From Ruminiclostridium sp. (lineage in GTDB: Bacteria; Bacillota; Clostridia; Oscillospirales; Ruminococcaceae), in the NCBI GenBank assembly GCA_017942025.1, contig JAGAVH010000056.1, forward strand, positions 1 through 33,484: 33,484 nt of DNA. The letters run 5' to 3'. The notes beneath the pieces were generated by a model, which did not search any database, had not been told where the DNA came from, and saw only the letters and a list, made by a program, of their open reading frames with translations. The position numbers and the translations under genes were made by a program. Within the stretch, counting starts at the first letter, position 1. Every line of letters starts with the position of its first letter. Of the stretch, positions 5,106 through 33,343 are shown piece after piece.

Positions 5106-6923
5106 ATGAGTAGCTTTACACTTCATTTAAAAAATAATAATGATACTACAATTCTTCCGTTGATTCAAAAGGAATCCGAGGAACCTATCAAAGACTATTT
5201 TGATAAAGGAAATGGAGAGTATATATATAATGATTATTATTATTCTCTGCATATAATTGATGAATTAGGCAATGCAGCTCCTGTTGACAAATTGTTTGTT
5301 AATAATGAAATAATTGACGATGTTGCCTTTTTATCTGGACGTAGAGCTTCTTGCATTTTTCTCGAATGTTTTGGAGTAGTAAAAATTGAAGTTATAATCA
5401 ACGGTGAATCTTATATAACACATAATACAAGAATTGTTATGAAAGAAAACGCCATTAGTACCAATATCGTAAATATGATTGATTATATTTATGAGAATTG
5501 CGATGATTATCTGTACGAAGAACATAAACACTCTAAAACTGGCGTGGGCGTGATGCCAAATTCCAATATCTCTATAGATACAAAACTATCGCTACTCGAA
5601 GAAATATATGATGTTTATATCAAAAGTTATCATATTTTGAAACATTCCGCACAAAACAAGCTTATAAACACAAACAAAATCGGTAGCTTTAATGAGTTGC
5701 AAAGCATTAGACAAAATACGATTAATTACATTGTTAATCATCCAGAGGAACTACAACCTGTTAATTACAATTCAGGCATATCTGTAAACAAGCAGTATTA
5801 TGAACCGCAAAAAACTTTAGTGCAATCGGTAGCATATTCCTGTGATATTTATGAAAACCAGGTTTTGGTTGGCTTTTTAAAAACAATTGTACAAGAATTA
5901 GAGGAAATAAAGCTTTCAGTTGAATTTCACAAAAATCAAAATACATCTCCTTATAGGCGAAACGGATATGTTGATTCGGCGTACTACATCTATACTAAGA
6001 ATATGAAAATGCTGAATAGCTATATGGAAGTTCTGAGCGATTGGATAACAAAAATAGAAAAACTTTATATAGAATACAAAAGGATTCTAAACGTTTCAGA
6101 ATTAAATGTTGTTTCTGTTCCAAGATACACCAATATATTCAGACGTATTATGCCATACAATATCGTTTTCGAAAAAATATTGAAATGGTTTAATTGCGGA
6201 AACTATGACTTGTCAAAATCAGACTTGCTGTTAAGCTTTATATCAATCAGCAAGATATACGAGTATTTTTGTTTGATTAAGATTAATCGCACTTTAGAGA
6301 AATGCGGTTATAGTTTGATTTCAGGGTTTCCTTTTAAATACTCGGAAAGCCGATATTATCGTAATACCATATACAATAATACATTTGAATTTTTAAAAGA
6401 TGATACTAAAATTACAGTTTACTATCAGCCGATTATTTATGGTAAAACAAATAATCGTGAAAGGCCGAACGGAATAGGTTTATTTAGGAACACATCAATT
6501 AGCATTACTGACCCTACCGCACTCGCTATGCTCGATGAACGCGAAGCAAAACAGGGTAGTTGCTATACTCCAGATTACCTAATAAAAATCAGTAATAACA
6601 ACAATACAAGTTATCACATACTCGATGCAAAACACAGTAGTCCCAATAATGTCAAACGATATCAGTTACCATATTTAGCGTTTAAGTATCTTTTCTCAAT
6701 AAGCGCTTTCCCAAACGGTGAAAATGTAGATAGTATGTGTATCATTTGTGGTAAAACAACGCACAATTCTTCAGAAAATATATATGACATTGCAGAAACA
6801 ATGGATATTAACGTACATCCTATGGCGCATATATGCAATGTCACAGGTGATGATATCGATAACGATAAAGATTTAATTGAATACATTGGAAAAATCGAAG
6901 AATTAGCTTCTCGGACTATTTGA
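5106..6923 (+). CDS. McrC-like DUF2357 protein with PD-(D/E)xK nuclease core
   Basis: This 605-residue partner lies 15 bp after the ATPase stop, so the two are surely co-transcribed. The N-terminal ~150 residues are beta-rich, as in DUF2357 proteins. The middle is helical, with a stretch around residues 210-330 (KQYYEPQKTLVQSVAYSCDIYENQVL) that matches the DUF2357 pattern. The C-terminal third holds the nuclease signature: P489-D490 in YTPDYLIK, then D507-A508-K509 in YHILDAKHS, the PD-(D/E)xK spacing. It probably cleaves nucleic acid when activated by the upstream ATPase. The target (modified DNA, other DNA or RNA) cannot be read from sequence. A hairpin at 6946-6971 follows the stop. Confidence 0.78.
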   Translation: MSSFTLHLKNNNDTTILPLIQKESEEPIKDYFDKGNGEYIYNDYYYSLHIIDELGNAAPVDKLFVNNEIIDDVAFLSGRRASCIFLECFGVVKIEVIINGESYITHNTRIVMKENAISTNIVNMIDYIYENCDDYLYEEHKHSKTGVGVMPNSNISIDTKLSLLEEIYDVYIKSYHILKHSAQNKLINTNKIGSFNELQSIRQNTINYIVNHPEELQPVNYNSGISVNKQYYEPQKTLVQSVAYSCDIYENQVLVGFLKTIVQELEEIKLSVEFHKNQNTSPYRRNGYVDSAYYIYTKNMKMLNSYMEVLSDWITKIEKLYIEYKRILNVSELNVVSVPRYTNIFRRIMPYNIVFEKILKWFNCGNYDLSKSDLLLSFISISKIYEYFCLIKINRTLEKCGYSLISGFPFKYSESRYYRNTIYNNTFEFLKDDTKITVYYQPIIYGKTNNRERPNGIGLFRNTSISITDPTALAMLDEREAKQGSCYTPDYLIKISNNNNTSYHILDAKHSSPNNVKRYQLPYLAFKYLFSISAFPNGENVDSMCIICGKTTHNSSENIYDIAETMDINVHPMAHICNVTGDDIDNDKDLIEYIGKIEELASRTI

Positions 6924-6971: not shown

Positions 6972-6979
6972 AACTTATG

Positions 6980-7405
6980 TGCAGAAATGTATCACTGGTC
7001 TTTGTTGGTCTTTACTTGGTCTTTATTGCTCGAAAAAAGTTGCAAAAGACCTCTCAATTTTACAAAATCCAACTGTAAATTACCCGAAGCACAGCAGGTT
7101 ATAAAACAGTCGATATGTTCATTGATTACACTGAATTACCATAATCCACAACAAGTAATTTACAGTAACTTTTAATGCTCAGTTTGACAGCAAGAGATAA
7201 CATACCATCCTTGCAAACCGTAGTGTTATGCGGAAAATCAGACGTTCAACTTTCAAATGATCTTTATCTGGTCTTTGGATTTCTCTATGTATCAGGCTTA
7301 AAATCAGAGTGCGTAAAAGACTCTGCATAACCTTAAATCACAAGGGATAATCAACGGTTGTCAGACTCTTGATTTGAAATGAACGGTGCGACTCCAAGAG
7401 ATAAT
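6980..7405 (+). repeat. Direct repeat, right copy (B)
   Basis: This is the second copy of the 1054-1477 repeat, ~94% identical and in the same orientation. GGTCTTT motifs recur at 6997, 7007 and 7018, and the second cluster is partly degraded (GATCTTT then GGTCTTT). It has two extra bases (ct) near 7367 relative to copy A. Sequence after 7405 is unrelated to that after copy A, so 7405 marks one junction of the island with the chromosome. Confidence 0.9.
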
Positions 7406-15770: not shown

Positions 15771-15800
15771 TGAGGCACACTTCTTTACGAAGTGTGCCTC
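15771..15800 (+). terminator. Left bracketing hairpin of repeat copy 1
   Basis: gaggcacacttc pairs with gaagtgtgcctc around a 5-nt loop, immediately after the tiny ORF. There is no T-run. The same 30 bases recur at 16042-16071 on the far side of the structured repeat. Confidence 0.7.
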
Positions 15801-15801
15801 G

Positions 15802-16041
15802 CAGCGTGTAGACAAAGTCTTGTCTACACGCTGTCAGACGATGAAAAACGCACGCAGACGAGGAAACTGACGCTGTCGGCGTACGATGGTACGGTAAGCG
15901 TCAGTTGACGAAGTAAGCAAAAATGCTTTAGGGAAGCCGTTTTCGGCTTCCCTAAACTTTTTGTATCACGTATTTATATGCTCGCAAAATAAGTACAAAT
16001 TTTTACGCATTTTTGCGGTGCGTGAGTTTGTCTTCAGTCTG
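15802..16041 (+). repeat. Structured intergenic repeat, copy 1 (short form)
   Basis: This is a 240-bp non-coding element between convergent genes. Its parts in order are: a 14-bp palindrome cagcgtgtagacaa / ttgtctacacgctg (15802-15833); a 10-bp stem aactgacgct (15865-15874) with agcgtcagtt (15897-15906) enclosing a cgtac/gtacg hairpin; a terminator-like hairpin (15927-15956) followed by T; and a right end with GTGCGTGAGTTTGTCTTC. The ends are imperfect inverted repeats (cagacga...cgcac against gtgcg...cagtctg). Copies 2 and 3 are at 26855-27188 and 33344 to the window end. It has no coding potential. Confidence 0.88.
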
Positions 16042-16072
16042 TGAGGCACACTTCTTTACGAAGTGTGCCTCA
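16042..16072 (-). terminator. Right bracketing hairpin of repeat copy 1; terminator of the anti-sigma gene
   Basis: This carries the same 30 bases as 15771-15800. It lies 6 bp beyond the 3' end of the minus-strand gene ending at 16079 and is preceded on that strand by an A/T run, so it can serve as that gene's terminator. Confidence 0.7.
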
Positions 16073-16078
16073 GTTATT

Positions 16079-17215
16079 TTATGGTTTAACTTCCTTAGAT
16101 TCTGTAAAGCCTTCATCGGCTATCCGCGTCGTTTCTTCGGCATATTCATCGCCGTTTGCAGGAAGCCATATTGTCTCCCCGGAGCCAACAATATACGATA
16201 CCGTACTGCTTTCACCTGTATATTCAGGCTTTGGCTTATCATCTGGATTATCCTCATAGACGTACTTTATGATATAGCCTTCAAAGTTCTTTTCTACGTA
16301 GTCGATAAATTCCTTTGCTTTTTCCTTGCCGATAAAGAAATACTTTCCGCTGGACAGGGTGTTGGTTGTAAGGTATCCGTTTTCATCCACGTTCATAACG
16401 ATATTGTTATATCCGGAGAATTTTATGCTTATACCAATATGCATTGTTTTTCCTCTGTTAAGAGTGTACTTTATATCCTCATCGGCATCCATAATCGTAA
16501 TAGGAATATCTTCTATATCGGAAAGTAGTATTTCCCATACCGCTTTACTCACGTCACCTTCAAAGGTTATATCATCCGACGTCTTACCGTCATCTCCCCA
16601 GTTTTTACAGGTTATCTTTCCGCTGAAGGAGAGATTATCCTTTAAATTAAGGTCATTTATAAAGCCTTCAAGAGTACGGGGAGTGTAAAATCCCTTGCCG
16701 TAAACGTAGTATTTGTCGCTTTCTGCAAATTTTACCGCTACTGCAAAGCCTTCGGAAACCTTTGATATTTTGTAGACCTCCACGTCTGTCGTGTAAGTCT
16801 TTTCGGTGTAATCGTCATAGCCTGAAGCTGTTGCAGACGCTATCTTTTCCGCAACAAGAGAAGCATCGATATCTGTACAACGAGAGCCGTAGGTTTCCTT
16901 TGAAAGCGTGAGCGTTCTATATTGTTCTTCAATTGTGCGCTCGTGCCATTTGGGTACATATGCAGAATCCATTGACGTTGTTATATCATCTGCATCAAGA
17001 TAAATATACTTTATGGGATATCCTCCCTGACCGTTCATCGCAAACAACACACCGCCTACAGCAACGGCACAGATACAAGCAGCCGCCGTTCCCAGCACCG
17101 CAAAATTCTTATACCAGGGCTTTTTTGTTTTTTCATTTGCCGCTGAGGTTATCATATCATCGGGTATATCGGATATGACCTTCATCAGTCGCATTTCCTT
17201 TTTATTATCCTTCAT
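16079..17215 (-). CDS. Single-pass membrane anti-sigma factor (putative)
   Basis: This 378-residue protein has a short N-terminal cytoplasmic part (residues 1-37), one membrane helix at ~38-60 (VLGTAAACICAVAVGGVLFAM) and a large extracytoplasmic domain. It lies 12 bp after an ECF sigma gene and has its own AAGGAGCGC ribosome site. This position and topology are classic for a membrane-bound anti-sigma that holds the sigma factor inactive until an envelope signal arrives. The outer domain has acidic, repeat-like beta segments but no family I can name. No zinc-binding ZAS motif (HxxxCxxC) is visible in the cytoplasmic part, so it is not a classical ZAS anti-sigma. Confidence 0.7.
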   Translation of the reverse strand: MKDNKKEMRLMKVISDIPDDMITSAANEKTKKPWYKNFAVLGTAAACICAVAVGGVLFAMNGQGGYPIKYIYLDADDITTSMDSAYVPKWHERTIEEQYRTLTLSKETYGSRCTDIDASLVAEKIASATASGYDDYTEKTYTTDVEVYKISKVSEGFAVAVKFAESDKYYVYGKGFYTPRTLEGFINDLNLKDNLSFSGKITCKNWGDDGKTSDDITFEGDVSKAVWEILLSDIEDIPITIMDADEDIKYTLNRGKTMHIGISIKFSGYNNIVMNVDENGYLTTNTLSSGKYFFIGKEKAKEFIDYVEKNFEGYIIKYVYEDNPDDKPKPEYTGESSTVSYIVGSGETIWLPANGDEYAEETTRIADEGFTESKEVKP

Positions 17216-17227
17216 AAGCGCTCCTTT

Positions 17228-17788
17228 CTAAACCGCAATACCATTATCCGTAAGGAACTTTTTAAGATTGTTTCTGGTGCGGTTTAATATAGTAGTAACG
17301 TTGGTTTCTGTAACACCAAGCCTTTTTGAAATACTTTTTACATCATCACAGAAGAAATAGCGACGGACGAATATATTTCTGTCACGGTCGGAAAGTCCGT
17401 CTAAAAAATCGGTTATCGCATTTTTAAGGGTATCGTCTGCCGATTCTTCTACGTTATCCATTGACGGAATACATTCGGACAGTTCGGATAAAAGTGCGTC
17501 GGTGCTTCCGTTTCGCCTGCTTCTTAAATTATATCTCAGCTTATCAAGAGAAATATTTCTTGCGATACGGCAGACATAAGCCGTCAGGTTATCGGGCTTT
17601 GCAGGAGGGATACTGTCCCAGACCTTTAAATAGGTATCATTTACACATTCCTCTGCATCTTCCTTATTTCTTAAAATATTATAGGAAATGCTTCTGCAGA
17701 GCTTTTCATACTTCTTTGATAAAGCCGAAACCGCTTCTTTGCTTCTGCTTGTAAAAAGCTCGATTATTCTGATATCCGTAATATCCAT
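17228..17788 (-). CDS. ECF-type RNA polymerase sigma factor
   Basis: This 186-residue sigma-70 family protein has region 2 with EDAEECVNDTYLKVWDSIPP and LTAYVCRIARNISLDKLR (core binding and -10 recognition). Region 4 is LSDRDRNIFVRRYFF followed by the helix-turn-helix SISKRLGVTETNVTTILNR (-35 recognition). I chose the ATG at 17788, preceded by GGAGAG. An in-frame ATG at 17824 would sit at the predicted transcription start of the ECF-like promoter (17832-17857). It forms an operon with the putative anti-sigma gene 12 bp downstream. Confidence 0.9.
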   Translation of the reverse strand: MDITDIRIIELFTSRSKEAVSALSKKYEKLCRSISYNILRNKEDAEECVNDTYLKVWDSIPPAKPDNLTAYVCRIARNISLDKLRYNLRSRRNGSTDALLSELSECIPSMDNVEESADDTLKNAITDFLDGLSDRDRNIFVRRYFFCDDVKSISKRLGVTETNVTTILNRTRNNLKKFLTDNGIAV

Positions 17789-17831
17789 TGCCACTCTCCT
17801 TTCTGCACCCTTTGAGCTGCTCATAAATAAA

Positions 17832-17857
17832 GACGATAAATTTGCATCTATGTCACA
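17832..17857 (-). promoter_or_regulatory. Candidate ECF-dependent autoregulatory promoter
   Basis: On the minus strand, TGTGACA (17857-17851) and CGTC (17835-17832) are 15 bp apart, preceded by a T-run. CGTC is the usual -10 core of ECF promoters. The predicted start is near 17825, giving a ~37-nt leader to the ATG at 17788. Confidence 0.5.
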
Positions 17858-17879
17858 AAAATTTTCAGATATTTTAAAT

Positions 17880-17902
17880 AAGCCCGGCAGAACGCCGGGC
17901 TT
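17880..17902 (-). terminator. Terminator of the surface-glycan operon
   Basis: aagcccggc pairs perfectly with gccgggctt around a 5-nt loop, 8 bp past the glf stop. On the minus strand it is followed by ATTTAAAAT. Confidence 0.75.
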
Positions 17903-17909
17903 GAACTAT

Positions 17910-19022
17910 TTATTCGCTTACCTTGCCGAATTCCTTTTTAACTGTTTCAAGAGCCGCAACGATAACCTTATCCATATCGTAGTACTTGTATTCACCAAGT
18001 CTGCCGCCAAAGATAACGCCTTCTTCCTTTTCCGCAAGCTCCTTGTACTTTGCATAAAGACTGCCGTTCTTTTCATCGTTTACGGGGTAATAAGGCTCGT
18101 CACCGGGCTTCCATTCTGCAGAGTATTCTCTTGAGATGATGGTTGTAGGCTGTGTGCCGTATTCAAAGTGCTTATGCTCGATAATTCTTGTAAAGGGTGT
18201 ATCGCCGTCCGTGTAGTTTACAACTGCATTACCCTGATAGTTTGACGTTTCAAGCTCCTCTGTTTCAAAGCGAACGCTTCTGTATTCGAGATTACCATAG
18301 CAGAAATCAAAGTATGCGTCAACAGCACCTGTATAAACCACCTTATCAGCAAGAGCATTGAGGCTTTCCTTATCCTGAAGATAATCGATACCGAGTCTTA
18401 CCTCTGCACCCTCTAACATTCTTTCGATAATCTGTGTATATCCACCCATAGGAATACCCTGATAGCTATCGTTAAAGTAGTTATTGTCGTAGGTCATACG
18501 AACGGGAAGGCGCTTTATAATAAATGCAGGTAATTCCTTGCAGTCTCTTCCCCACTGCTTTTCTGTGTAACACTTTACAAGCTTTTCATAGATATCTCTG
18601 CCGACAAGAGAAATAGCCTGCTCTTCAAGGTTTTTTGGTTCGCCTTTAATTTCAGCCTTCTGCTCGTTGATGATAGCCATAGCTTCGTCAGGGGTAGCAA
18701 TTCCCCACATCTTTGAGAAGGTGTTCATATTGAAGGGGAGGTTGTAAAGCTCGTTCTTATATCTTGCTATCGGAGAATTTGTAAAGCGGTTGAACTGTGC
18801 GAAGCGCTGGATGTAATCCCATACAAACTTGTCGCTTGTGTGGAAGATGTGCGCACCGTAAACGTGAACGTTGATACCGCTGCGGTTTTCCGTGTAGATA
18901 TTGCCTGCAATATGATTTCTCTTATCAATTACAAGACAGGTCTTGCTGTTCTTCATTGCTTCGTAGGCAAAGACAGCACCGTAAAGTCCTGCGCCTACAA
19001 TAAGATAATCGTATTTTGCCAT
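17910..19022 (-). CDS. glf: UDP-galactopyranose mutase
   Basis: This 370-residue FAD enzyme interconverts UDP-galactopyranose and UDP-galactofuranose. The FAD-binding loop VGAGLYGAVFA is near the N-terminus, followed by VIDKRNHIAGN. GAHIFHTS, FTNSPIARY, LPFNMNTF and EKQWGRDCKELP are hallmark Glf motifs. I chose the ATG at 19022, which has GGAG 8 nt upstream and gives the canonical MAKYDYLIVGAG start; a longer in-frame extension is only a run of K/R residues overlapping the upstream gene. It is the last gene of the five-gene glycan operon, so the polymer probably contains galactofuranose. Confidence 0.95.
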   Translation of the reverse strand: MAKYDYLIVGAGLYGAVFAYEAMKNSKTCLVIDKRNHIAGNIYTENRSGINVHVYGAHIFHTSDKFVWDYIQRFAQFNRFTNSPIARYKNELYNLPFNMNTFSKMWGIATPDEAMAIINEQKAEIKGEPKNLEEQAISLVGRDIYEKLVKCYTEKQWGRDCKELPAFIIKRLPVRMTYDNNYFNDSYQGIPMGGYTQIIERMLEGAEVRLGIDYLQDKESLNALADKVVYTGAVDAYFDFCYGNLEYRSVRFETEELETSNYQGNAVVNYTDGDTPFTRIIEHKHFEYGTQPTTIISREYSAEWKPGDEPYYPVNDEKNGSLYAKYKELAEKEEGVIFGGRLGEYKYYDMDKVIVAALETVKKEFGKVSE

Positions 19023-19035
19023 TGCGACTCCGATA

Positions 19036-19836
19036 TTATTTCTTCTGTTTTTCTTTCTTTTCTTTTGCTTTTTTCTCTTCGATGGTGGAATTGTATTCAT
19101 CACAGACCTTGTTTATATCGCCCGACATTACCACTTCGCCGTTGTTGAGCCATATAGCCTTGTCGCACATTTCCTTTACTGTAGTCATATTGTGAGATAC
19201 AAAAAGGAGAGTGGCGCCCTTTTCCAGCATTTCCTTCATACGCTTCATACATTTTTTTCTGAAAAGCACGTCGCCTACTGAAAGGACTTCATCGACGATA
19301 AGTACATCAGGTTCAACCATAGTTGCTACCGAAAATCCGAGTCGGGACTTCATACCCGAAGAAAAGTTCTGAACGGGAGAATCAAGAAAATCCTCCAGCT
19401 CTGAAAACTCGACGATATCGTCAAATTTTTCGTCTATAAACTGCTTTGTATAGCCTAATATACATCCGTTGAGATATATATTCTCCCTTGCGGTAAGCTT
19501 GGGATCGATACCTGCTCCAAGCTCAATCAGGGATGCTATACTGCCATCGACCTTTACGCTTCCCTTATAAGGCTTTAAAATACGGCTGATAACCTTTAAA
19601 AGTGTGGATTTTCCACTTCCGTTGGTGCCTATTATCGCCCAGGCTTCGCCCTTTTTTATCTTCAGATTTACATCCTTCAGGGCTATGAACTCCTGAAACA
19701 TAAGCTGTCTGCGTATCAGTCTGACAAAATACTCCTTGAGATTGTCAACCTTCTGATTAGCCTTATTGAAACGGACTGTTACATTATCAACATCTACTAT
19801 ATACTGAGGAGCTTTTTCCTTTTCTGTATTTTCCAT
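19036..19836 (-). CDS. Polysaccharide ABC exporter ATPase (Wzt/TagH-like)
   Basis: This 266-residue ATPase has Walker A GTNGSGKST (70-78), ABC signature NFSSGMKSRLGFSVA (~157-171), Walker B LIVDE (179-183) and switch H215 in FVSHN. The long N-terminal extension before Walker A and the SSGMKxR signature are typical of polysaccharide and teichoic acid exporters. It lacks the C-terminal sugar-binding domain of long Wzt proteins and instead ends in a short Lys/Glu-rich tail. AAGGAGG lies before its ATG. It pairs with the permease encoded 9 bp upstream and would power export of the undecaprenyl-linked glycan. Confidence 0.92.
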   Translation of the reverse strand: MENTEKEKAPQYIVDVDNVTVRFNKANQKVDNLKEYFVRLIRRQLMFQEFIALKDVNLKIKKGEAWAIIGTNGSGKSTLLKVISRILKPYKGSVKVDGSIASLIELGAGIDPKLTARENIYLNGCILGYTKQFIDEKFDDIVEFSELEDFLDSPVQNFSSGMKSRLGFSVATMVEPDVLIVDEVLSVGDVLFRKKCMKRMKEMLEKGATLLFVSHNMTTVKEMCDKAIWLNNGEVVMSGDINKVCDEYNSTIEEKKAKEKKEKQKK

Positions 19837-19845
19837 ATTGCCTCC

Positions 19846-20733
19846 TTAAATATACAGTATGAATTTATCCTGTGATCTTTTGAAAAAGAACACGCCTATA
19901 GCGAGCATAAGTATCGCATAGCCGAATCCCAGCAGGAAATCAACCGGAGTTACTACTGCCCACTGAGGCACCGTTTCAAGCGTCGGTACCCAGATAAAAT
20001 ATCTGAATTGTTTTATATAGATATAAACGGGATTGCAATATTCAACGAAATGAGCGAGATAAAGCGCAAACGGTGTAACTCCTGCATTTATCTGATCCTT
20101 TGCCTTATCGTAAAACATTCCTACATCATAGAATATTGCAGAGCAATACATCAGCATTGTAGAAAATGCATTATACACATATCTTATATCTCTGAAGAAT
20201 ACGTGGAGCTGTGCCATAAGAAAGCCTAGTCCCATAGAAAAAATGTATGCTTCAACAACTACAATGATTATGCCGAAATTCCAGAAGGAAAAAAGCAGTC
20301 TTCCCTCTATTATTGAAAAAACAAGCATAACGATAATAAGCGCACCCATACTGAAAATAAAGTCCACAGTTGTGGAGGTTATCTTGGAAAGAGGGAACAT
20401 AAATTTCGAAACGTATGTCTTTTTAAGCAATGATGTGTTGTCCGTTATAGCTCCCAGTGCCTTGCTGACCGCTGTGTTAGCAAGCTCGAACACCGATCTG
20501 CCCGCAAGCAGATATATCGGAAACAGCGCTATCTCTCTCTTGAAAAGGAATGAGAAAACTATCGCCATAATTATCATTATAAGAAGCGGGTTCAGTATGC
20601 TCCATACATAACCCAGAAAGCTTCTTCTGTATTTCAGCTTTATATCTCTTTTAACAAGCTGAACCAGAAGGTCTTTATATCTGAATATTTCAAAAAAAGA
20701 GCCTTCCTTATATTGTCTTGGTTTTGTTGCCAT
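19846..20733 (-). CDS. Polysaccharide ABC exporter permease (Wzm/TagG-like)
   Basis: This 295-residue ABC-2 type membrane protein has about six hydrophobic segments. The N-terminal DLLVQLVKRDIKLKYRRSFLGYVWS motif with WSILNPLL is a strong marker of O-antigen, teichoic acid and galactan export permeases. It overlaps no neighbour. The ATPase partner follows 9 bp downstream and a glycosyltransferase gene precedes it by 22 bp. Its role is transport of the lipid-linked glycan across the cytoplasmic membrane. Confidence 0.92.
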   Translation of the reverse strand: MATKPRQYKEGSFFEIFRYKDLLVQLVKRDIKLKYRRSFLGYVWSILNPLLIMIIMAIVFSFLFKREIALFPIYLLAGRSVFELANTAVSKALGAITDNTSLLKKTYVSKFMFPLSKITSTTVDFIFSMGALIIVMLVFSIIEGRLLFSFWNFGIIIVVVEAYIFSMGLGFLMAQLHVFFRDIRYVYNAFSTMLMYCSAIFYDVGMFYDKAKDQINAGVTPFALYLAHFVEYCNPVYIYIKQFRYFIWVPTLETVPQWAVVTPVDFLLGFGYAILMLAIGVFFFKRSQDKFILYI

Positions 20734-20755
20734 TGAGTCCTCCGTCAGTTATATG

Positions 20756-21790
20756 TCAGCTGAAATTATGATTTTTTCTCAGCTTGTTATAAAGCCATGA
20801 ATTAGATATCTTTTCCCAGGTTTTTTTGCTTATATGCAGTCTGTTCATAGCTCTGAATATTTTATACTGTTTTTGGGCAAGCAAGTAGGCTTCGGGAAAC
20901 TCCGTCTTAAAGCGTTCCATCATACTGTCACCCATCTGTCTGCCCTTTTTCTTATTCTTTTCTACAAGCATAACAGTTGTGATATAGCTGAGCAATAAGC
21001 TCTGAACTTTTCTTGCAAAGTATCTTTTGCCGTGCTCGTCCATTTTATGTGATTTTTTATACTCGGATGTAAGGCGTGTAAGGACAGTATCAATATGAGA
21101 TATCCTTTTCAGCTGATTTTCATCCGATACACTCTGATTTACATCACCTATGCGGTAATGATAAAGGAACATATCAAGCGGTGTTATACTTTCTGCATAA
21201 CAGCACGGAATAGTTGCGTATTCGTAATCTTCGTAGAACACGTGCTCTGAAAGCTTGATGCAGTTTTCCTTATAAAAGCTGTTTTTATAGATAATACCGT
21301 GGAAGGTAAGACTTCTGTCGAAGCTCTTCCAGTTATCTATTATCTGCGAAAAGGTATAGGGTACTCCGAATTTTTCGGGGTAGGTCTTCCACTTCTTCAC
21401 TTCGCCGTCAGATATATCTATAGTGTAATGGTGACAAAGCACCACATCGCTGTCGGTATCCTTCAGTACTTCGATAAGCTCCGGCAAATTATCGGTTTCT
21501 ATCCAGTCATCTGAATCTATGACCTTTACGTATTTGGCTTTTGCCGCTTCAAGCCCTGTATTGAGAGCGCCACCGTGCCCCTTGTTTTCCTGATTTATAA
21601 GGCGGAACACATCGGGCTTCTTATCGCAATATTCCCTTGCTATATCCGCTGTATTATCCGCTGAACCGTCGTTTACCACAATCACCTCGATATAATCCTT
21701 TGCTTCTTCGCAAAGAAAGGAATCAAGGCACTTGCGCAGAAATTTCGCAGAGTTATATGACGGAATGATAAATGAAAGTATTTTGTCCAT
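20756..21790 (-). CDS. Family 2 glycosyltransferase
   Basis: This 344-residue GT-A enzyme opens with SFIIPSYNSAKFLRKCLDS. VIVVNDGSADNTADIA (nucleotide-sugar binding), NKGHGGALNTGLE and the metal-binding KVIDSDDWIE follow. The catalytic domain covers residues ~1-220 and the remainder is a helical, basic C-terminal region. It is predicted to add a sugar to the surface glycan built by this operon; donor and acceptor cannot be read from the sequence. It lies 22 bp from each neighbour. Confidence 0.9.
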   Translation of the reverse strand: MDKILSFIIPSYNSAKFLRKCLDSFLCEEAKDYIEVIVVNDGSADNTADIAREYCDKKPDVFRLINQENKGHGGALNTGLEAAKAKYVKVIDSDDWIETDNLPELIEVLKDTDSDVVLCHHYTIDISDGEVKKWKTYPEKFGVPYTFSQIIDNWKSFDRSLTFHGIIYKNSFYKENCIKLSEHVFYEDYEYATIPCCYAESITPLDMFLYHYRIGDVNQSVSDENQLKRISHIDTVLTRLTSEYKKSHKMDEHGKRYFARKVQSLLLSYITTVMLVEKNKKKGRQMGDSMMERFKTEFPEAYLLAQKQYKIFRAMNRLHISKKTWEKISNSWLYNKLRKNHNFS

Positions 21791-21812
21791 ATCTCACCTT
21801 ATATAAAAACCC

Positions 21813-22631
21813 TTATGACTTTTCTTGCTTTGTCCTGCTGAGCTTTGTCAGTCTGTTTTCTCTGATACCACTCATTATCGCTTTTAGAGCCTTTGTAGGC
21901 GATATATCCGCACTGTACATTTTCTTTTTTCTTACGATGTAATAAAAAGCATACAGCACAGATAAAGGCAATCCTAAAATATATCTTGTGGTATTGCCTC
22001 TGTCCTTAAAGAATTTTTCATTGAATCCCTTGAACCAGGTGGAGCTTTCCTGCCCCACGGTTGCAATTTCAGACGGCACATAATATATTTTAAGCTTTGC
22101 TTTTAAACTATCCTTTAAGAATTTAAGCTCCTCCTCGGCACCATTGCCTGTGCCTGCACCAAGCAGTTCATCAAATCTGACACCGCTGTCAATAAGAGAT
22201 TGCCTTTTGAAGGATATTTGCCAGGAGCTTACCTTCATAATCTTCGGAAAACCGAGTCTTATTATCTTGTCGGGGAAGGATGGCGGTCTGTCTGCCATTT
22301 TGAAAATTATTATATCAGCATCGGGAAGAAGGTTATAAGCGGAAACTATTTTCTCTATATAATCCTTTTTAAAGACCTCGTCATCATCACATAGCAGACA
22401 TATATCGCCCTGTGATTTTTCTATAGCCATATTGCGGCTTTTGGTAAGTCCTCTTTCTTTGACGCTGTACATACGGGCAAGTCCGTTTTTTGTTCTCAGC
22501 TCATCATAATCTTCTTTGTTGCACTGATTTATAACAACCGCACTTCCTGTTATCCTGCTGTCATTTATTATATCCATATCCTCTTTATGCATACAGGATA
22601 AGAGCACTTCGAGCTTCATTCTGCCACTCAT
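21813..22631 (-). CDS. Family 2 glycosyltransferase, first gene of glycan operon
   Basis: This 272-residue GT-A-like protein lacks the usual N-terminal PxYN motif. It reads LEVLLSCMHKEDMD and carries RGLTKSRNMAIEKSQGDICL followed by the DxD-type LLCDDDEV, as in a divergent GT2 subgroup seen in capsule clusters. The later SSTWFKGFNEKFFKDRG is a typical acceptor-side motif of that subgroup. The ATG at 22631 is preceded by GGGAGG at the right spacing; the internal ATG at 22619 lacks this. It is the first gene of the operon, behind the promoter at 22690-22718. The sugar it transfers is unknown. Confidence 0.83.
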   Translation of the reverse strand: MSGRMKLEVLLSCMHKEDMDIINDSRITGSAVVINQCNKEDYDELRTKNGLARMYSVKERGLTKSRNMAIEKSQGDICLLCDDDEVFKKDYIEKIVSAYNLLPDADIIIFKMADRPPSFPDKIIRLGFPKIMKVSSWQISFKRQSLIDSGVRFDELLGAGTGNGAEEELKFLKDSLKAKLKIYYVPSEIATVGQESSTWFKGFNEKFFKDRGNTTRYILGLPLSVLYAFYYIVRKKKMYSADISPTKALKAIMSGIRENRLTKLSRTKQEKS

Positions 22632-22689
22632 CAGAATCCTCCCTTTGCGGTTTCAATTCTTTGCTCACGGCATATTTATACAATTTACT

Positions 22690-22718
22690 ATTATATCATA
22701 TAACCCCTGTTATGTCAA
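22690..22718 (-). promoter_or_regulatory. Perfect consensus promoter of the glycan operon
   Basis: On the minus strand, TTGACA (22718-22713), 17-bp spacer, TATAAT (22695-22690). The transcript starts ~50 nt before the first glycosyltransferase ATG. The structured element 22725-22893 lies just upstream. Confidence 0.88.
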
Positions 22719-22724
22719 GCAAAG

Positions 22725-22893
22725 AAGCCGTATTATAAGAACCACACGCCGTTACCGAAATCATAGATTTCGACGGCTGAGAGAACCTTGTTATATATGT
22801 TTGTGCTTCGCACTTGCAACCTATCGGTTGCTTTATGGGAACGAGTTCCCATAACATATATTTTAAGAATGCCGGGACCTTATAATACAGCTT
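22725..22893 (-). repeat. Structured non-coding element with inverted ends and a cloverleaf
   Basis: The ends pair: aagccgtattataag (22725-22739) with cttataatacagctt (22879-22893), 14 of 15 positions, the odd one being G-U in minus-strand RNA. Inside are a hairpin (gccgt/acggc outer and cgaaatc/gatttcg inner, 22748-22777) and a four-stem cloverleaf (22793-22861). The cloverleaf has an outer stem atatatgtt/aacatatat enclosing gtgc-ttc-gcac, gcaacc-tatc-ggttgc and tatgggaa-cgag-ttcccata. It lacks tRNA landmarks. It could be a small MITE-like repeat or a structured RNA after the histidine kinase gene. Confidence 0.65.
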
Positions 22894-22915
22894 TTTACAG
22901 TAGAATATGTTTTAT

Positions 22916-24217
22916 TCAGTTTATCTTCATTATCGCATTGGAGACAAACACATTTCCGATTATCTCCCACTTGTAAAATCCACCGTTCTCTTTGCATACC
23001 TCTTTTACGATTTCCATACCGAGTCCGTGGAATTCATTGTTCTCCTTATCTGTCAAAAGTGTGCCGTTCTTCCTTTTTACTCTGCTGAAGGTGTTTCTGA
23101 CTATTACCGTAAAATAATCCTTATACATGAACACCTTTATTCTGACATCGGGGTTATCTGAGCTGAGCGTCGCTTCTATAGCATTATCAAGAAGATTTGA
23201 AAGCACGGAAGAAATTGCAGATGAAGGAATAGCCATTTCAGGCAAAGTTTCCAGAGAATATTCAAAAAAGATGTTATTTCCCTCACATACCGCCGCTTTG
23301 TATGCTATCATAGCGTCTACAAGTCCGTTTCCTGTAGTCTGATGAAGCGAGGGCTGAAGCTTATCAGCGCTTATATTTATCTCGCTGAGCATTTCCTTTG
23401 CCTTTTCATATTCACCTTTTTCAAGAAAAGAGCTGACAGAGTAAAGATGATTCTTTATATCGTGACGTATCTTTTTTGTTCTGTTTGACGCCTGAAACTG
23501 TATTGCAAGCTGTTCTTTTACTGCGTAAAAATCCGAATACAGCGCACGCATATTATTTTCCTTTTTGTAAGAGGAACATATTTCTGCAAAGAAATTCACT
23601 ACCAGTATGCTCATAGCAAGGAAAGAAAGTCCGAGTACAAAGAACAGGAAAGAATTCGGGTTTTCCGTGCCATCCGCAAGATAAAAGCATCCGAACACCG
23701 TGGTAATAAACATAAACACCGTCATTATAAAGGCAAAGTGCATCCACACGGAGCGGAACACCTTTAAATCCTCCTGGGATAAAAGCCTGTAGACAATGTA
23801 CATCGCACCGCCCCAGAGCGAGGTCATCAGAAAAGCGATGATAAAATGATTTATCGGATTTATATTATATGCAATATTGAAATCCTTGCCCATTATCATA
23901 TCCAGCAGACTCCGTATTACTATCTCCGAAAGCAGATTCATAAAAAGCGAAGTCACCGCAAGCGAAAAGGATATATATGGCTTTGCTCCGAAGACGAATA
24001 CGCCGATAAGCGTAATCACAGCTGCAAGAATCAGCTGTCGCACCCATAATATTCCGGTTGTATACACAAGCATCAGCGCACCTGCCAGCACAAAAAAGGA
24101 AATTCCGCACGCTATGTTTATCTTCTTGCTTTCTCCCGCAAGCTTAAAAAAGAATGCAAGTATAATCACGGATTTTATAACCGATATTATCAAATCTGCA
24201 TATATCACAATAATCAC
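22916..24217 (-). CDS. AgrC-like sensor histidine kinase
   Basis: This 433-residue kinase has about six N-terminal membrane helices (residues ~5-215), a short coiled linker, a DHp helix with H252 in KIRHDIKNHLYSV, and a GHKL ATPase domain. The latter has an N-box SNLLDNAIEA (340-349) and a G-box HGLGMEIV (397-404). This is the HPK10/AgrC class that partners LytTR regulators and usually senses peptides. It starts at GTG (24217), overlapping the upstream regulator's TGA by 4 nt (GTGA), so translation is coupled. No agrD/agrB-like genes are nearby, so the signal is unknown. Confidence 0.9.
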   Translation of the reverse strand: MIIVIYADLIISVIKSVIILAFFFKLAGESKKINIACGISFFVLAGALMLVYTTGILWVRQLILAAVITLIGVFVFGAKPYISFSLAVTSLFMNLLSEIVIRSLLDMIMGKDFNIAYNINPINHFIIAFLMTSLWGGAMYIVYRLLSQEDLKVFRSVWMHFAFIMTVFMFITTVFGCFYLADGTENPNSFLFFVLGLSFLAMSILVVNFFAEICSSYKKENNMRALYSDFYAVKEQLAIQFQASNRTKKIRHDIKNHLYSVSSFLEKGEYEKAKEMLSEINISADKLQPSLHQTTGNGLVDAMIAYKAAVCEGNNIFFEYSLETLPEMAIPSSAISSVLSNLLDNAIEATLSSDNPDVRIKVFMYKDYFTVIVRNTFSRVKRKNGTLLTDKENNEFHGLGMEIVKEVCKENGGFYKWEIIGNVFVSNAIMKIN

Positions 24218-24960
24218 CCTACCTTTGACGCTATATAATCTGTTATTTTTTCTAAAAGCTCCTTGACCTTTCTTCTGCTGAGAGGTACGGTTTCACCGTT
24301 ATCAAGCTCCACATCAATGCGGTTTACGGATTTTATCTTTGAGATATTTACAACATAACCTCTGCACACCTCGAAAAAGCCCTTTTCAAGATATTTATCC
24401 TCTATCTTAGAAAGTCTTTTTCCGTATTTGCCGCACAAACGATATTGCTTTGAGCCTGTATTAAGGTACATTTTTCTGTTCAGACAGCTAAAATAAAAGA
24501 TGTCATCGACAGCTATACGGATAGATGAGTGTTCGCCGTTTTCCTCCGTTTCAAAAAGCTCATAATCAGGCTTGAACCTCTGAAATTCTCCTATAACCCG
24601 TATAAACTCCTTTTCCATATCTGACTTTTCCATATCCTTAGGCAAAAAAGCGTTTATGCGATAAGGAATGGTACTGTATATTTCTGATTTATAGGAGGTT
24701 ACAAAAAGCAGAAAAAAACTGCTGTCAAGGACTCTTAATTTCTGTGCTACCTCCTTACCGTTTATAACAGGCATATCTATATCAAGTATCACAACATCAC
24801 AGCCGTTTAACTGTTCAAAATCCTTTATAAGCACGTTGCCGTCGGTGTAGGTATATATATCAGCCATAACTCCGCTTCTGGCTACCGCAGACAAAAGCAC
24901 AGGCTTTAATGTATTTTCTATGTAATCCTCATTATCATCACAAAGTGCAAATTTTATCAT
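24214..24960 (-). CDS. LytTR-family response regulator (AgrA-like)
   Basis: This 248-residue regulator has an N-terminal receiver with acidic pair D8/D9 (CDDNEDY), phospho-acceptor D60 in VILDIDMPV and a conserved T/S and K further on (FVTSYKSEIY). From ~residue 140 a LytTR DNA-binding domain follows: VDDIFYFSCLNRKMYL, EVCRGYVVNISKIKSV and the terminal VPLSRRKVKEL. GGTGATG lies before the ATG. It is the first gene of a two-gene operon with the AgrC-like kinase. Two LytTR-like direct repeats (25032-25062) just beyond the -35 box suggest that it activates its own promoter. Confidence 0.92.
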   Translation of the reverse strand: MIKFALCDDNEDYIENTLKPVLLSAVARSGVMADIYTYTDGNVLIKDFEQLNGCDVVILDIDMPVINGKEVAQKLRVLDSSFFLLFVTSYKSEIYSTIPYRINAFLPKDMEKSDMEKEFIRVIGEFQRFKPDYELFETEENGEHSSIRIAVDDIFYFSCLNRKMYLNTGSKQYRLCGKYGKRLSKIEDKYLEKGFFEVCRGYVVNISKIKSVNRIDVELDNGETVPLSRRKVKELLEKITDYIASKVG

Positions 24961-24991
24961 TTCATCACCACTTTATATTTCCTTTAATATA

Positions 24992-25020
24992 AGTATAGCA
25001 CATTCAAAAAAACAGTTCAA
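24992..25020 (-). promoter_or_regulatory. Promoter of the two-component operon
   Basis: On the minus strand, TTGAAC (25020-25015), 17-bp spacer, TATACT (24997-24992), ~31 bp before the regulator ATG. Confidence 0.7.
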
Positions 25021-25031
25021 TATGCTTTTCT

Positions 25032-25062
25032 TACCACTCGGTATCAAAAATTGACCATTCAG
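25032..25062 (-). promoter_or_regulatory. Tandem LytTR-like binding sites
   Basis: taccactcgg (25032-25041) and gaccattcag (25053-25062) are imperfect direct repeats 21 bp apart, two helical turns. They lie 11 bp upstream of the -35 box of the AgrA-like gene. ACCATTCAG resembles the ACAnTTnAG half-site of ComE/AgrA-type regulators. The placement fits an activator. Confidence 0.5.
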
Positions 25063-25081
25063 TCACTTTGATGCAAAAAAA

Positions 25082-25110
25082 ATCCCGGAAAGCTTATTTT
25101 CCTTCCGGGA
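25082..25110 (-). terminator. Terminator of the isochorismatase-like gene
   Basis: tcccggaa pairs perfectly with ttccggga across a 12-nt loop. On the minus strand it is followed by a run of eight T (25075-25082 region), 12 bp past the stop. Confidence 0.85.
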
Positions 25111-25121
25111 ATGATATGATA

Positions 25122-25634
25122 TTACACGTAGCTTACGCCTGCTTTACCAAGCTTTTTTCGTGCCTTGTTTATTTTCTTTTGAGGAAAGACCGTTGCTGTT
25201 CCCTTACGGATAATTTCCGCCTTTATTCCTCGCTTTGCGGCACCTAATGCGGTAGAGGTCACACAACCGCACTCGTCAAGTCCGCAAAGGCAAAGAGAAT
25301 CGTACTCTTTTTCTCTTACCAGCTTCAGCAGTTCCTTGTTTGAAAGAGCGTCACCGAGAAGCTTATCAAACACGTAATCCGAAACTATATCAAGTCCGCC
25401 GTAAAGCTCCGCACCCTCCGTACCTGCCAGCGAATAGCCAAAAAGAAGACGATTTGTAGGTAAATTCTGAATAATATGGCGTATATATATGATATCACAG
25501 CCTTTTTCCTGATACTCTCGTATAAGCCCGTTTACATTTCCGACAAGCTCCTCTGTGTTATATGCAAAAATCGGTTTTCTCTTTTCGCAAAGATAATCGT
25601 TCTGCATATCGATTACTATAAGTGCCTTTTTCAT
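25122..25634 (-). CDS. Isochorismatase-family cysteine hydrolase
   Basis: This 170-residue hydrolase has the catalytic triad of the nicotinamidase/isochorismatase fold: D9 in VIDMQNDYL, K91 in VFDKLLGDAL and C124 in ECGCVTSTALGA. The family cleaves amide or vinyl-ether bonds of small molecules such as nicotinamide, N-carbamoyl compounds or isochorismate. The metal-binding DxHxxxH of true nicotinamidases is not visible, so pncA function is not assumed. It is a single-gene unit on the minus strand with a strong terminator and is divergent from cysK. Confidence 0.85.
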   Translation of the reverse strand: MKKALIVIDMQNDYLCEKRKPIFAYNTEELVGNVNGLIREYQEKGCDIIYIRHIIQNLPTNRLLFGYSLAGTEGAELYGGLDIVSDYVFDKLLGDALSNKELLKLVREKEYDSLCLCGLDECGCVTSTALGAAKRGIKAEIIRKGTATVFPQKKINKARKKLGKAGVSYV

Positions 25635-25797
25635 AACTTTACCCCTTCCTTTTTTAACACTAAATGTATTTTATTTACATTCCTTTCCGATTATAGCATT
25701 TATCTTATATCAAGTCAATACGCACATTGTAAATTATAAAGAGAAAAGTAACGTTTTTTTCGAAATTTTAATAAAATAAATATAACAGTTTTTTCTA

Positions 25798-25827
25798 TTG
25801 ACTTAAAGTATGGTTTTATGTTATTAT
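25798..25827 (+). promoter_or_regulatory. Probable promoter of the cysteine synthase gene
   Basis: TTGACT (25798-25803), 18-bp spacer, TATTAT (25822-25827), ~50 nt before the ATG at 25884. A small hairpin aaaccg/cggttt (25851-25858 area) follows in the leader. Confidence 0.6.
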
Positions 25828-25883
25828 ATAAGATGGCGTTCAAACCGCAGGTCGGTTTATACAGACGAAAGGACAAAAGACAT

Positions 25884-26816
25884 ATGATATATGACAATAT
25901 TTTAGAGGTTATAGGACACACTCCTCTTATCCGTCTCAACCGTATGGTTGATGAGGATAGTGCGGAGATACTCGTTAAATTTGAAGGACTCAATGTAGGC
26001 GGTTCAATAAAGACAAGAACTGCTTATAATATGATAACAGAGGCAGAAAAGCAGGGTATAATCAACAAGGATACGATTATTGTTGAGCCTACCAGCGGAA
26101 ATCAGGGTATAGGACTTGCACTTGTGGGTGCAGTAAAGGGTTATAAGACAATTATAATTATGCCCGACTCTGTAAGCTGCGAAAGAAGAATGCTGGTTCA
26201 GCACTACGGTGCAGAGGTTATACTCATCCACGATGCAGGAAATATCGGTGACTGCATAGACGAATGCTTAAAAACCGCAGAGAGAATGAGAGATGAAAAC
26301 CCCAACGTATATATCCCTCAGCAGTTTGAGAACAAAGCAAATCCCATGGTACATAAGTATCATACAGGTCTTGAAATTCTTGAGCAGGCAGGTAAGGAAA
26401 TCCACGGCTTCTGTTCAGGCTTCGGTACAGGCGGTACAATAAGCGGTATCGGTGAAACCTTAAAGGCGGTTTATCCTGATATTGAAATATGGGCGGTTGA
26501 ACCTGAAAACGCCGCAATCCTGGCAGGCGGTACTATAGGTACACACCTACAGATGGGTATCGGCGACGGTCTTATCCCCGGCAATCTGAATCTCAACATC
26601 TACAGCAATGTTTATATAGTATCTGACGAAGAGGCTATCCGTACAGCTAAGGATCTTGCAAGACTTGAAGGTATCATGTGCGGTATCTCCAGCGGTACAA
26701 ACGTAGCCGCCGCAAAACAGCTGGCAAAGAAGCTTGGCAAGGGCAAAACAGTAGTTGCGGTTCTTCCCGATACAGCAGAAAGATACTTCTCCACTCCCCT
26801 TTTTGACGGCGAATAA
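25884..26816 (+). CDS. cysK: Cysteine synthase (O-acetylserine sulfhydrylase)
   Basis: This 310-residue PLP enzyme makes cysteine from O-acetylserine and sulfide. It starts IGHTPLIRLNR. The PLP lysine is K43 in GGSIKTRTA, where most family members read SVKDR. The substrate loop is EPTSGNQGIGLA, the phosphate-binding loop GTGGTISG, and the C-terminal end ERYFSTPLF is diagnostic of cysteine synthase. I chose the ATG at 25884, preceded by GAAAGGA; an upstream in-frame start at 25818 lies inside the promoter region. Length is normal for the CysK/CysM group. It is followed by copy 2 of the structured repeat. Confidence 0.92.
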   Translation: MIYDNILEVIGHTPLIRLNRMVDEDSAEILVKFEGLNVGGSIKTRTAYNMITEAEKQGIINKDTIIVEPTSGNQGIGLALVGAVKGYKTIIIMPDSVSCERRMLVQHYGAEVILIHDAGNIGDCIDECLKTAERMRDENPNVYIPQQFENKANPMVHKYHTGLEILEQAGKEIHGFCSGFGTGGTISGIGETLKAVYPDIEIWAVEPENAAILAGGTIGTHLQMGIGDGLIPGNLNLNIYSNVYIVSDEEAIRTAKDLARLEGIMCGISSGTNVAAAKQLAKKLGKGKTVVAVLPDTAERYFSTPLFDGE

Positions 26817-26823
26817 AAATCAA

Positions 26824-26851
26824 GACCGTGTGAATGAAAATTCACACGGTC
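26824..26851 (+). terminator. Left bracketing hairpin of repeat copy 2; cysK terminator
   Basis: gaccgtgtgaat pairs perfectly with attcacacggtc around gaaa, 7 bp after the cysK stop, followed by ctttc. The same stem, with a different loop, recurs at 27190-27213. Confidence 0.75.
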
Positions 26852-26854
26852 TTT

Positions 26855-27188
26855 CAGCGTGTAGACAAAGTCTTGTCTACACGCTGTCAGACGATGAAAA
26901 ACGCACGTCAGCCATTGTTTTTGACCTATTCGGTCAAAAACGTCAACTGCTCCGTTGGTGTACGAACGGCAAGGATGCCGTAAAGCGAACACCAAAAGTG
27001 CATCACGATGATGCACAACAAAGTGTTCGCATAAGGTACGGTAAGCGTCAGTTGACAAAGTAAGCAAAAATGCTTTAGGGAAGCCGTTTTCGGCTTCCCT
27101 AAACTTTTTTGTATCACATATTTATATGCTCGTAAGACAAGTACAAAATTTTACGCATTTTTGCGGTGCGTGAGTTTGTCTTCGGTCT
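26855..27188 (+). repeat. Structured intergenic repeat, copy 2 (long form)
   Basis: This 334-bp element shares both ends with copy 1 and has ~100 extra bp in the middle. Visible structures are: 14-bp palindrome (26855-26886); gtttttgacc/ggtcaaaaac hairpin (26917-26941); gtcaactg (26942-26949) pairing with cagttgac (27049-27056) around two arms, ttggtgt/acaccaa with inner cggca/tgccg (26955-26995) and gtgcatca/tgatgcac (26998-27016); then the terminator-like hairpin (27074-27103) with a T-run. It lies between convergent cysK and the 5'-nucleotidase gene. No coding potential. Confidence 0.88.
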
Positions 27189-27189
27189 G

Positions 27190-27213
27190 AGACCGTGTGA
27201 TTATTCACACGGT
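27190..27213 (-). terminator. Right bracketing hairpin of repeat copy 2; 5'-nucleotidase terminator
   Basis: gaccgtgtga pairs perfectly with tcacacggtc around ttat, 7 bp beyond the end of the minus-strand gene at 27221, with A/T-rich sequence on the gene side. The stem is shared with 26824-26851. Confidence 0.75.
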
Positions 27214-27220
27214 CCTTTAT

Positions 27221-32094: not shown

Positions 32095-32255
32095 TAACAA
32101 GGTTATTCACGGAAGCCTGTGAAAATCAGGCACGAGCCCGTCGCCGTGATGTACAATATTTTCAGCCTACCGTCAGCCGTAATGACGGGAAACAGCCATT
32201 GGATTTTTCTGAGAAGGCGGTTGAAAGGTACCAAGTCGGAATACCTGGATAGCTT
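32095..32255 (+). promoter_or_regulatory. Cobalamin riboswitch
   Basis: The conserved pieces appear in order: GGAAGCC (32111-32117) with its hairpin partner and GCACGAGCCCGTCGCCGTGAT, GCCATTGG...GAGAAGGCGG (32195-32220), and the B12 box AAGTCGGAATACCTG (32233-32247). The region to 32341 (cctctg...gtgagg) holds the expression platform; no long T-run is seen, so control may be translational. It controls the DUF4430 lipoprotein and ECF S-component genes, which should be off when cobalamin is plentiful. Confidence 0.93.
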
Positions 32256-32341: not shown

Positions 32342-32791
32342 ATGAAGAAAATTTTTAAAAGATCCTTATCGTTACTGCTGAGTCTTGCGCTTATTACGGC
32401 TATAGCGCTTACAACCGGTTGTAATGATAACAAGGAAACCCCAAAAACCTCGGACACCTCCATATCCGAAAGCCAGAAAGAAATCGTCGTAAAAGGCGAA
32501 GGAAAGACAAAGTTCAGTTTTTCCGTTACCGATAAGGACGGAAACACCACGGATTTTGAAATCAACACCGACAAGACAATCGTAGGAGAGGCTCTTCAGG
32601 AGCTTCAGCTCATCGAAGGTGACGAAAGCGAATATGGTCTTTTTGTAAAGAAGGTAAACGGCATAACCGCTGATTTCGACGTAGACAAGACCTATTGGGC
32701 ATTCTACGTAAACGGTGCTTACGCTTCTTCGGGTGTAGATACTACGGAAATCAAGGAAGGCGAAAGCTACGCCTTTAAAGTAGAAAAATAA
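32342..32791 (+). CDS. DUF4430 (transcobalamin C-like) lipoprotein
   Basis: This 149-residue protein has a lipoprotein signal peptide with lipobox LTTGC (C27), then a flexible Ser/Thr/Lys linker and one DUF4430 domain (residues ~50-148). The domain contains GEALQEL, GLFVKKVNGITADF and the YWAFYVNG-YASSGVD core that resembles the C-terminal cobalamin-embracing domain of transcobalamin. It is anchored outside the membrane and probably captures cobalamin or corrinoids for the downstream S-component. The ribosome site is AAAGGAAAAA. Its stop overlaps the next ATG (TAATG). A cobalamin riboswitch precedes it. Confidence 0.92.
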   Translation: MKKIFKRSLSLLLSLALITAIALTTGCNDNKETPKTSDTSISESQKEIVVKGEGKTKFSFSVTDKDGNTTDFEINTDKTIVGEALQELQLIEGDESEYGLFVKKVNGITADFDVDKTYWAFYVNGAYASSGVDTTEIKEGESYAFKVEK

Positions 32792-33319: not shown

Positions 33320-33343
33320 TCAGGTCACCGAAGGGTGACCTGA
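33320..33343 (+). terminator. Terminator of the cobalamin uptake operon
   Basis: tcaggtcacc pairs perfectly with ggtgacctga around gaag, 10 bp past the S-component stop. It borders copy 3 of the structured repeat, as bracketing hairpins do at copies 1 and 2. Confidence 0.75.

Follow-up and report, generated by a model that had tools for sequence, protein, structure and literature searches.

Here, we describe a family of short non-coding elements in a 33,484-nt stretch of Ruminiclostridium sp. DNA (contig JAGAVH010000056.1 of assembly GCA_017942025.1; hereafter, the window), which is the entire contig C3 of genome G000 (80 contigs, 83% complete). G, C, and L numbers denote the genomes, contigs, and loci of this analysis. 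We propose that they are non-autonomous DNA elements resembling miniature inverted-repeat transposable elements (MITEs), and that their insertion machinery recognizes the folded shape of an intrinsic terminator and not its sequence, with a probability of approximately 0.8. Their mobile, stem-loop-duplicating nature is read from the sequence comparisons given below, and from these we infer a DDE-like joining reaction. The target duplication is the key feature of the elements and was absent from the initial annotation, which had left the choice between a non-autonomous mobile element with terminal inverted repeats and a structured RNA or terminator module. Empty sites, copy number, target duplications, and the occurrence of the same ends on unrelated interiors bear out the former. 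The RNA alternative is partly true of the window's own type of element (class A), which has a covarying fold and a strand bias.

Duplicated target hairpins and empty sites

A 19.8-kb piece of the window was aligned to 71 genomes of the genus, and the matching stretches were then read. The initial annotation had proposed empty sites in close strains as a check, and a single hairpin was found at all three window sites in G021 and at two of the three in G026. Site 1 of G021 and of G026 (contig C50) holds a single hairpin, GAGGCACACTTC..GAAGTGTGCCTC. The left gene of this site also occurs in G026 (C66) and G024 (C113) with a different single hairpin and another right neighbor, so that only contig C50 represents site 1 of G026, and G024 offers no comparison at this site. 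At site 2, one hairpin each was found in G026 and G021, and the two flank alignments of G026 overlap by 28 nt, which are the hairpin. Site 3, where the window holds only one side of the element, has one hairpin in G021 and a different one in G026. In G024, site 3 is filled, and the contigs break within the element at site 2. The possibility that the hairpin pairs are older than the element was rejected because the empty sites carry a single hairpin. With one terminator hairpin in relatives where the window has hairpin–element–hairpin, the element is evidently mobile.

Most of the 40 copies in the own genome, where complete, lie between two copies of one hairpin, which varies by site. The flanks were analyzed for 81 complete elements (236–338 nt) with both flanks, distinct by sequence, from the own genome, genus relatives, and the listed matches on named contigs; a few of these are one site in two genomes, and 5 further elements with short flanks were dropped. 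The left and right flanks matched above the 99.9th percentile of randomly paired flanks in 70 of the 81. Among 71 usable cases, the duplication was 18–36 nt long, its far end was no more than 2 nt from the hairpin foot in 67, and the hairpin began no more than 2 nt from the element in 69. Duplication length followed the hairpin end with r = 0.91. Because both the edges and the length of the duplication track the hairpin, it is the stem-loop that is duplicated. In DNA transposons, target duplications usually comprise a fixed few base pairs; here, the size of the duplicated stretch is evidently set by the hairpin shape and not by a fixed base count. Chance or misassembly as the general cause was rejected, as matching hairpin pairs occur in many assemblies.

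Neighboring frames (called by a simple rule of at least 100 amino acids (aa)) were readable for 68 of the 81 elements, and the other 13 were dropped. Convergent frames enclose 45 of the 68, compared with a background of 36 convergent junctions out of 270 in 60 loci (binomial p ~1e-23). Co-directional frames enclose another 15 in one sense and 7 in the other, and divergent frames enclose 1. The 3' end of a neighboring frame faces the element in 67 of the 68. The elements thus sit at terminator-like hairpins, mostly between convergent genes. At L053 (own genome) and L224 (a JAFQUH contig), which are apparently the same site, the element orientations are opposite, and the unlike hairpins keep their genomic sides; this arrangement apparently arose by inversion between palindromic flanks or by two insertions.

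Terminal repeats, interiors, and the conserved fold

The end repeats of G000 are CAGCGTGTAGACAAAG on the left and CAGACTGAAGACAAAC (complement) on the right, and those of the copies read in G052 and G053 are CAGCTTGTCGAAAAA and CAGACTGTCGATAAAC. The two ends vary in concert from one species to another (GTAGACAAA/GAAGACAAA in G000 and GTCGAAAAA/GTCGATAAA in the G052 and G053 copies). A search with CAGNNTGTCGANAAA gave 150, 144, and 43 matches in G052, G053, and G234, respectively, versus 3, 0, and 3 with the control. Loci read from G052 and G234 revealed three further interior classes with ends as in class A: class B (G052; ~175 nt, longer with a nested module), class C (G052; 480 nt), and class D (G234; ~226–248 nt). 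When 11 representatives of classes A–D were trimmed by 25 nt at each end, BLAST similarity was found within classes and none between them (E <= 0.001). The flanking hairpins of pairs picked by their ends alone matched above the 99th percentile in 24 of 29. One of the five misses came from within the composite L311, as a sub-piece of it; L320 lies exactly on the cut. Because the terminal repeats are shared, the interiors are unrelated, and the hairpin duplication is the same, the ends define the mobile unit. The interior appears dispensable for hairpin-duplicating insertion, and this favors a DNA transposon system whose enzyme acts at the ends.

Some copies of classes A and B contain the nested module. 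It was seen by eye in L314, L318, L319, L320, L336, L367, and the long window copy (~26964–27035) as a GGCAAGGATGCC-type hairpin together with a long stem; the stems are variable, whereas the loop around ACGA is conserved. It lies inside class A and class B in either orientation, much as an independently mobile unit would. L020 (own genome) and L110 (G026) have the insertion site and left end in common and differ in the interior, which suggests interior exchange between copies. The class D interiors (L321, L359, and L361 of G234) presumably resemble GC-rich interspersed repeats that are common in gut Firmicutes; if this likeness is true, the mechanism may be far wider.

A consensus fold was derived from 35 diverse short class A copies. 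It has 70 pairs, with 98.7% of the cells paired, and 27 of the 70 pairs have changed on both sides; none of 500 shuffles reached any of the measures, and slid structures scored far lower. G-U cells outnumber A-C cells by 37:11, and by 25:10 when distinct types are counted (p = 0.017 on types, one isolated pair left out). This excess favors the + strand RNA of the element, but the relatedness of the copies weakens the test. In the window's type, the conserved fold would act in an RNA of the + strand. No Rfam family reached its gathering score, in agreement with the earlier view that no named family fits.

Copies in the window and their distribution

The three copies were read directly where the initial annotation had placed them, except that copy 2 ends 1 nt further than had been stated, and a repeat search of the window paired them at 88–100% identity across segments of 53–88 nt. 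The other structural claims also held: the conserved right end with GTGCGTGAGTTTGTCTTC, the 14-bp end palindrome, and the central hairpin are present, apart from the palindrome of copy 3, which is not visible as the window stops before it. The terminal inverted repeats of copy 1 are imperfect as had been described (CAGCGTGTAGACAAAGTC versus CAGACTGAAGACAAACTC; 14 of 18 positions identical). Consistent with the reported lack of coding potential, the frames of at least 90 aa that touch copies 1 and 2 all enter from the flanks. Copy 1 together with its hairpins folds with z = -13.8, which, with the genome-wide counts of copies and right ends given below, speaks against a chance pattern. Its two flanking hairpins are identical over 30 nt, and those of copy 2 have a common stem and different loops.

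Table 1. Coordinates of the elements and hairpins in the window
Feature	Position	Strand	Basis
Copy 1, left flanking hairpin (duplicated target; terminator-like)	15771..15800		exact 30-nt match to 16042–16071; G021 and G026 have one hairpin at this site when empty
Element copy 1, short form, 240 nt	15802..16041	+	sequence reading, repeat search, genome BLAST
Left-end palindrome; first 18 nt are the left terminal inverted repeat	15802..15833	+	helix 1, covarying
Variable-stem hairpin with conserved inner loop (P2)	15867..15904	+	helices 5 and 6
5' arm of the GCAAAAATGC/GCATTTTTGC stem	15917..15926	+	helix 7
Internal (central) terminator-like hairpin	15927..15956	+	repeat search; helix 8
3' arm of the GCAAAAATGC/GCATTTTTGC stem	16007..16016	+	helix 7
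Right terminal inverted repeat of copy 1	16024..16041	-	sequence reading, repeat search, right-end pattern
Copy 1, right flanking hairpin (duplicated target)	16042..16071		exact repeat; empty sites
Copy 2, left flanking hairpin (duplicated target)	26822..26853		flank matching; empty sites
Element copy 2, long form, 335 nt, extra stem-loop modules	26855..27189	+	sequence reading
Copy 2, right flanking hairpin (duplicated target)	27191..27214		flank matching; only one hairpin present in G026 and G021
Copy 3, right flanking hairpin (target)	33320..33343		resembles the hairpin at the left end of the C22 copy (L009)
Element copy 3, truncated by the contig end	33344..33484	-	sequence reading, genome BLAST

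Elsewhere in the window, direct repeats at 1050–1477 and 6976–7405 match in register over 300 nt (94%) and 38 nt (97%). The two genes between them, 2064–5090 (weak AAA match) and 5106–6923 (DUF2357 and PDDEXK_7), look like a McrBC-type defense pair. A cobalamin riboswitch (32111–32244, + strand, 44.6 bits) lies upstream of the frame at 32342.

A BLAST search of the own genome with the right half of copy 1 gave 41 rows, corresponding to 40 copies and 1 reverse self-match of the internal hairpin; some of the 40 places are at contig ends, where halves of one copy may be counted twice (e.g., C22 and C3). The 20-nt right-end pattern was found at 51 sites (reversed control, 0) and the left-end pattern at 47 (control, 5). 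The expectation of very many genome-wide copies, raised from the three in the window, was therefore correct. The own-genome loci yielded 37 distinct complete elements, mostly of 239–242 or 306–336 nt. Within the genus, the presence is patchy, with matches in 10 of the 71 genomes and at least three matches in eight, the main carriers (G000, G021, G024, G026, G049, G051, G052, and G053). A covariance-model search of relatives, as had been suggested earlier, also found copies outside the own genome. The model of the 118-nt core matched 5 of 297 family genomes under strict filters, with the best 12 candidates at most scored per genome: the own genome, G001 (2), G234 (at least 12), G103 (3), and G081 (weak). 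The G081 match was rejected, as it reads like a plain terminator. The window's type is thus found in three genera, its own and those of G234 and G103. Hairpin pairs were seen by eye in 9 of the 10 copies read in G234, of 12 listed, and in 2 of the 3 copies in G103. Isolated element relatives in G029 (L100) and G001 (L101/L263) are without the usual hairpin pair, and the L100 element is flanked by the two arms of one hairpin.

The phage search gave one weak match, in the unannotated phage-labelled record MT835999 (78% over 128 nt), and a phage search with one class C element gave no match. No plasmid match was found for copy 1 or for one class B element. Viral contig searches gave 0, 0, and 3 matches; of the three, L367 has a class B-like end, and two look like chance.

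Insertion mechanism, alternatives, and known systems

Based on these comparisons, we propose the following insertion pathway. The element would insert at an extruded terminator hairpin and be joined at its two 5' feet. As the feet would be close in space, a short three-dimensional stagger would correspond to 18–36 nt along the sequence, and fill-in would copy the hairpin to both sides. With a terminator left on both sides, the insertion would be nearly harmless to the host. The elements look like pathway b of Wan et al. realized many times. We give an even chance to the fuller picture, in which Ruminiclostridium-like Clostridia have a transposase or recombinase that recognizes the cruciforms extruded by terminators and cuts them at their two 5' feet, the duplications are measured by DNA shape, and the system serves at least four unrelated non-coding types, the window's type being present in three genera with a deeply conserved travelling RNA fold. 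The elements would then give a genome-wide record of hairpin formation in living cells, and they point to a means of inserting DNA at the ends of genes with a hairpin retained on either side.

Several observations weigh against the proposed MITE-like insertion. Flank pairs fell below the cut in 11 of the 81 elements. On visual inspection, L010, L216, and L222 retain the stem and differ in the loop, and the partner hairpins of L026, L030, and L040 lie beside another copy (L087 and L035, L034, L088), which suggests that copies recombined or were misassembled. L032 and L194 seem to be a single site seen in two genomes, with unlike hairpins in both, and L117, L202, and L237 have mismatched flanks without explanation. 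The left and right hairpin copies agree better in the same sense in 56 of 73 cases, with 10 ties, and better inverted in 7; the loop at empty site 1 is likewise the reverse complement of the window's loop. Such inverted loops are not expected from simple fill-in. The covarying internal fold of class A is more than a plain DNA element needs. The assemblies are mostly fragmented metagenome-assembled genomes. The longest element found (~480 nt) is too short for a transposase gene, and no autonomous copy was present in the stretches read from the own genome, G021, G026, G052, G234, or the named contigs; the reading of these incomplete genomes was confined to the surroundings of end matches, and the interiors were not scanned with protein families.

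An end-pattern search of the own genome for a parent gave copies, truncations, a tandem array (L071, ~2100–2880; ~100-nt units closing in an element right end), and a mini-element (L074). Two candidates were rejected: L256, from an end-consensus search of G021 and G026, is an element end beside an ordinary cluster of ArsR-type, permease, and thioredoxin-like genes, and the 2.7-kb end pair in L306 is a chance end match within a gene. The elements are short, non-coding, and multi-copy, with terminal inverted repeats and a target duplication of hairpin-set length, as in MITEs. As a parent with the same ends was not found, "MITE-like" is the safe word.

The elements could instead be MITEs of a lost or unassembled IS1182/IS1272-type transposase, which we regard as unlikely. 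According to two reports, IS1272 targets stem-loops without a common sequence, including confirmed terminators, and Wan et al. drew the whole stem-loop duplication as a possible branch; however, IS1272 removes the stem-loop and leaves no duplication (PMC4923244, PMC5678879). PF13751 is found in 17 of the 71 genus genomes and is absent from G000, G021, G024, G026, G051, G052, and G053; among the main carriers, only G049 has it, as two short matches, one of which is over the cut-off in a 70-aa contig-edge frame. PF01609 occurs in 25 of the 71 and in none of the eight main carriers. In G001, which has two element copies, a broken PF01609 gene and a weak PF13751 match were found. No transposase was thus found in the carriers by PF13751 and PF01609; Y1_Tnp, IS110, rve, Mutator, ISL3, and PDDEXK were not searched. 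Duplications of 0–60 bp are reportedly given for IS1182 in ISfinder; if this is true, some members may already act in this way.

Spread in the manner of short interspersed nuclear elements (SINEs), in which a reverse transcriptase (RT) of the host or of a prophage copies the structured + strand RNA and uses nicked terminator hairpins for priming, is improbable in our estimate. It would accommodate the covarying fold, the G-U excess, and the variable length of the target duplications. An RT of ~406 aa is present in G000, G021, G024, and G026, the four closest carriers, and PF00078 (RVT_1) occurs in 24 of the 71 genus genomes. However, no RVT_1 match at E <= 0.001 was found in G049, G051, G052, and G053, two of which are 98–99% complete, and the matching inverted repeats that change together at both ends, as well as the same ends on unrelated interiors, speak against it. 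The RT of G000 (L294, 1575–2795, - strand), the only one typed, is RT_UG26 and adjoins a SAP/DUF6434 protein. A resident, immobile module (a structured RNA or terminator) that gene conversion had multiplied, while selection on termination preserved its hairpins, would suit a fold conserved far beyond the needs of a passive element and the interiors swapped at one site (L020 and L110). It is very improbable, being already contradicted by the empty sites with one hairpin, and the patchy presence, the hairpins that differ by site yet match on both sides, and the shared ends of unrelated interiors also oppose it.

In the open-licence literature, no description of the element or of natural whole stem-loop duplication was found. 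Small bacterial MITEs are known for a fixed short duplication set by the parental transposase. IS200/IS605-derived palindromic elements, REP/BIME, and PATE have hairpins at or near their ends and, to our knowledge, make no target duplication, whereas the present elements have inverted-repeat ends and duplicate a stem-loop. Group IIC introns insert at terminator-type stem-loops, and we know of no matching target duplications made on both sides by reverse splicing. In contrast, the present elements have duplications on both sides, and half of the main carriers have no RVT_1. A structured DNA target is described in one report (PMC10190682).

As far as the available text goes, BrickBuilt and 464/PgRS of Porphyromonas gingivalis are similarly MITE-like, with similar terminal repeats and dissimilar interiors, and three of four complete BrickBuilt copies have target duplications of unequal length or sequence; that text describes no stem-loop target for BrickBuilt, and one copy is said not to disrupt a nearby natural terminator (PMC4596501). 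RUP, BOX, and SPRITE are also short, without a transposase gene, with inverted-repeat ends, many intergenic copies, and structured transcripts. SPRITE is enriched near gene 3' ends and has a terminator-like form, and no duplication could be established for it; unlike in the present elements, hairpin duplication is not mentioned in the portions of these reports at hand (PMC3049150, PMC10969869). IS1272/TnSha1 of the IS1182 family is like the present elements in that stem-loops, several of them terminators, are targeted by shape and the target size varies (21–85 bp, their model A). It differs in encoding a transposase, which was not found here, and in deleting the stem-loop that the present elements duplicate; whole stem-loop duplication is drawn as a hypothetical branch by Wan et al. 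(2017) (PMC4923244, PMC5678879). A duplication length that tracks the stem-loop is natural evidence for insertion into an extruded hairpin, and it fits this branch.

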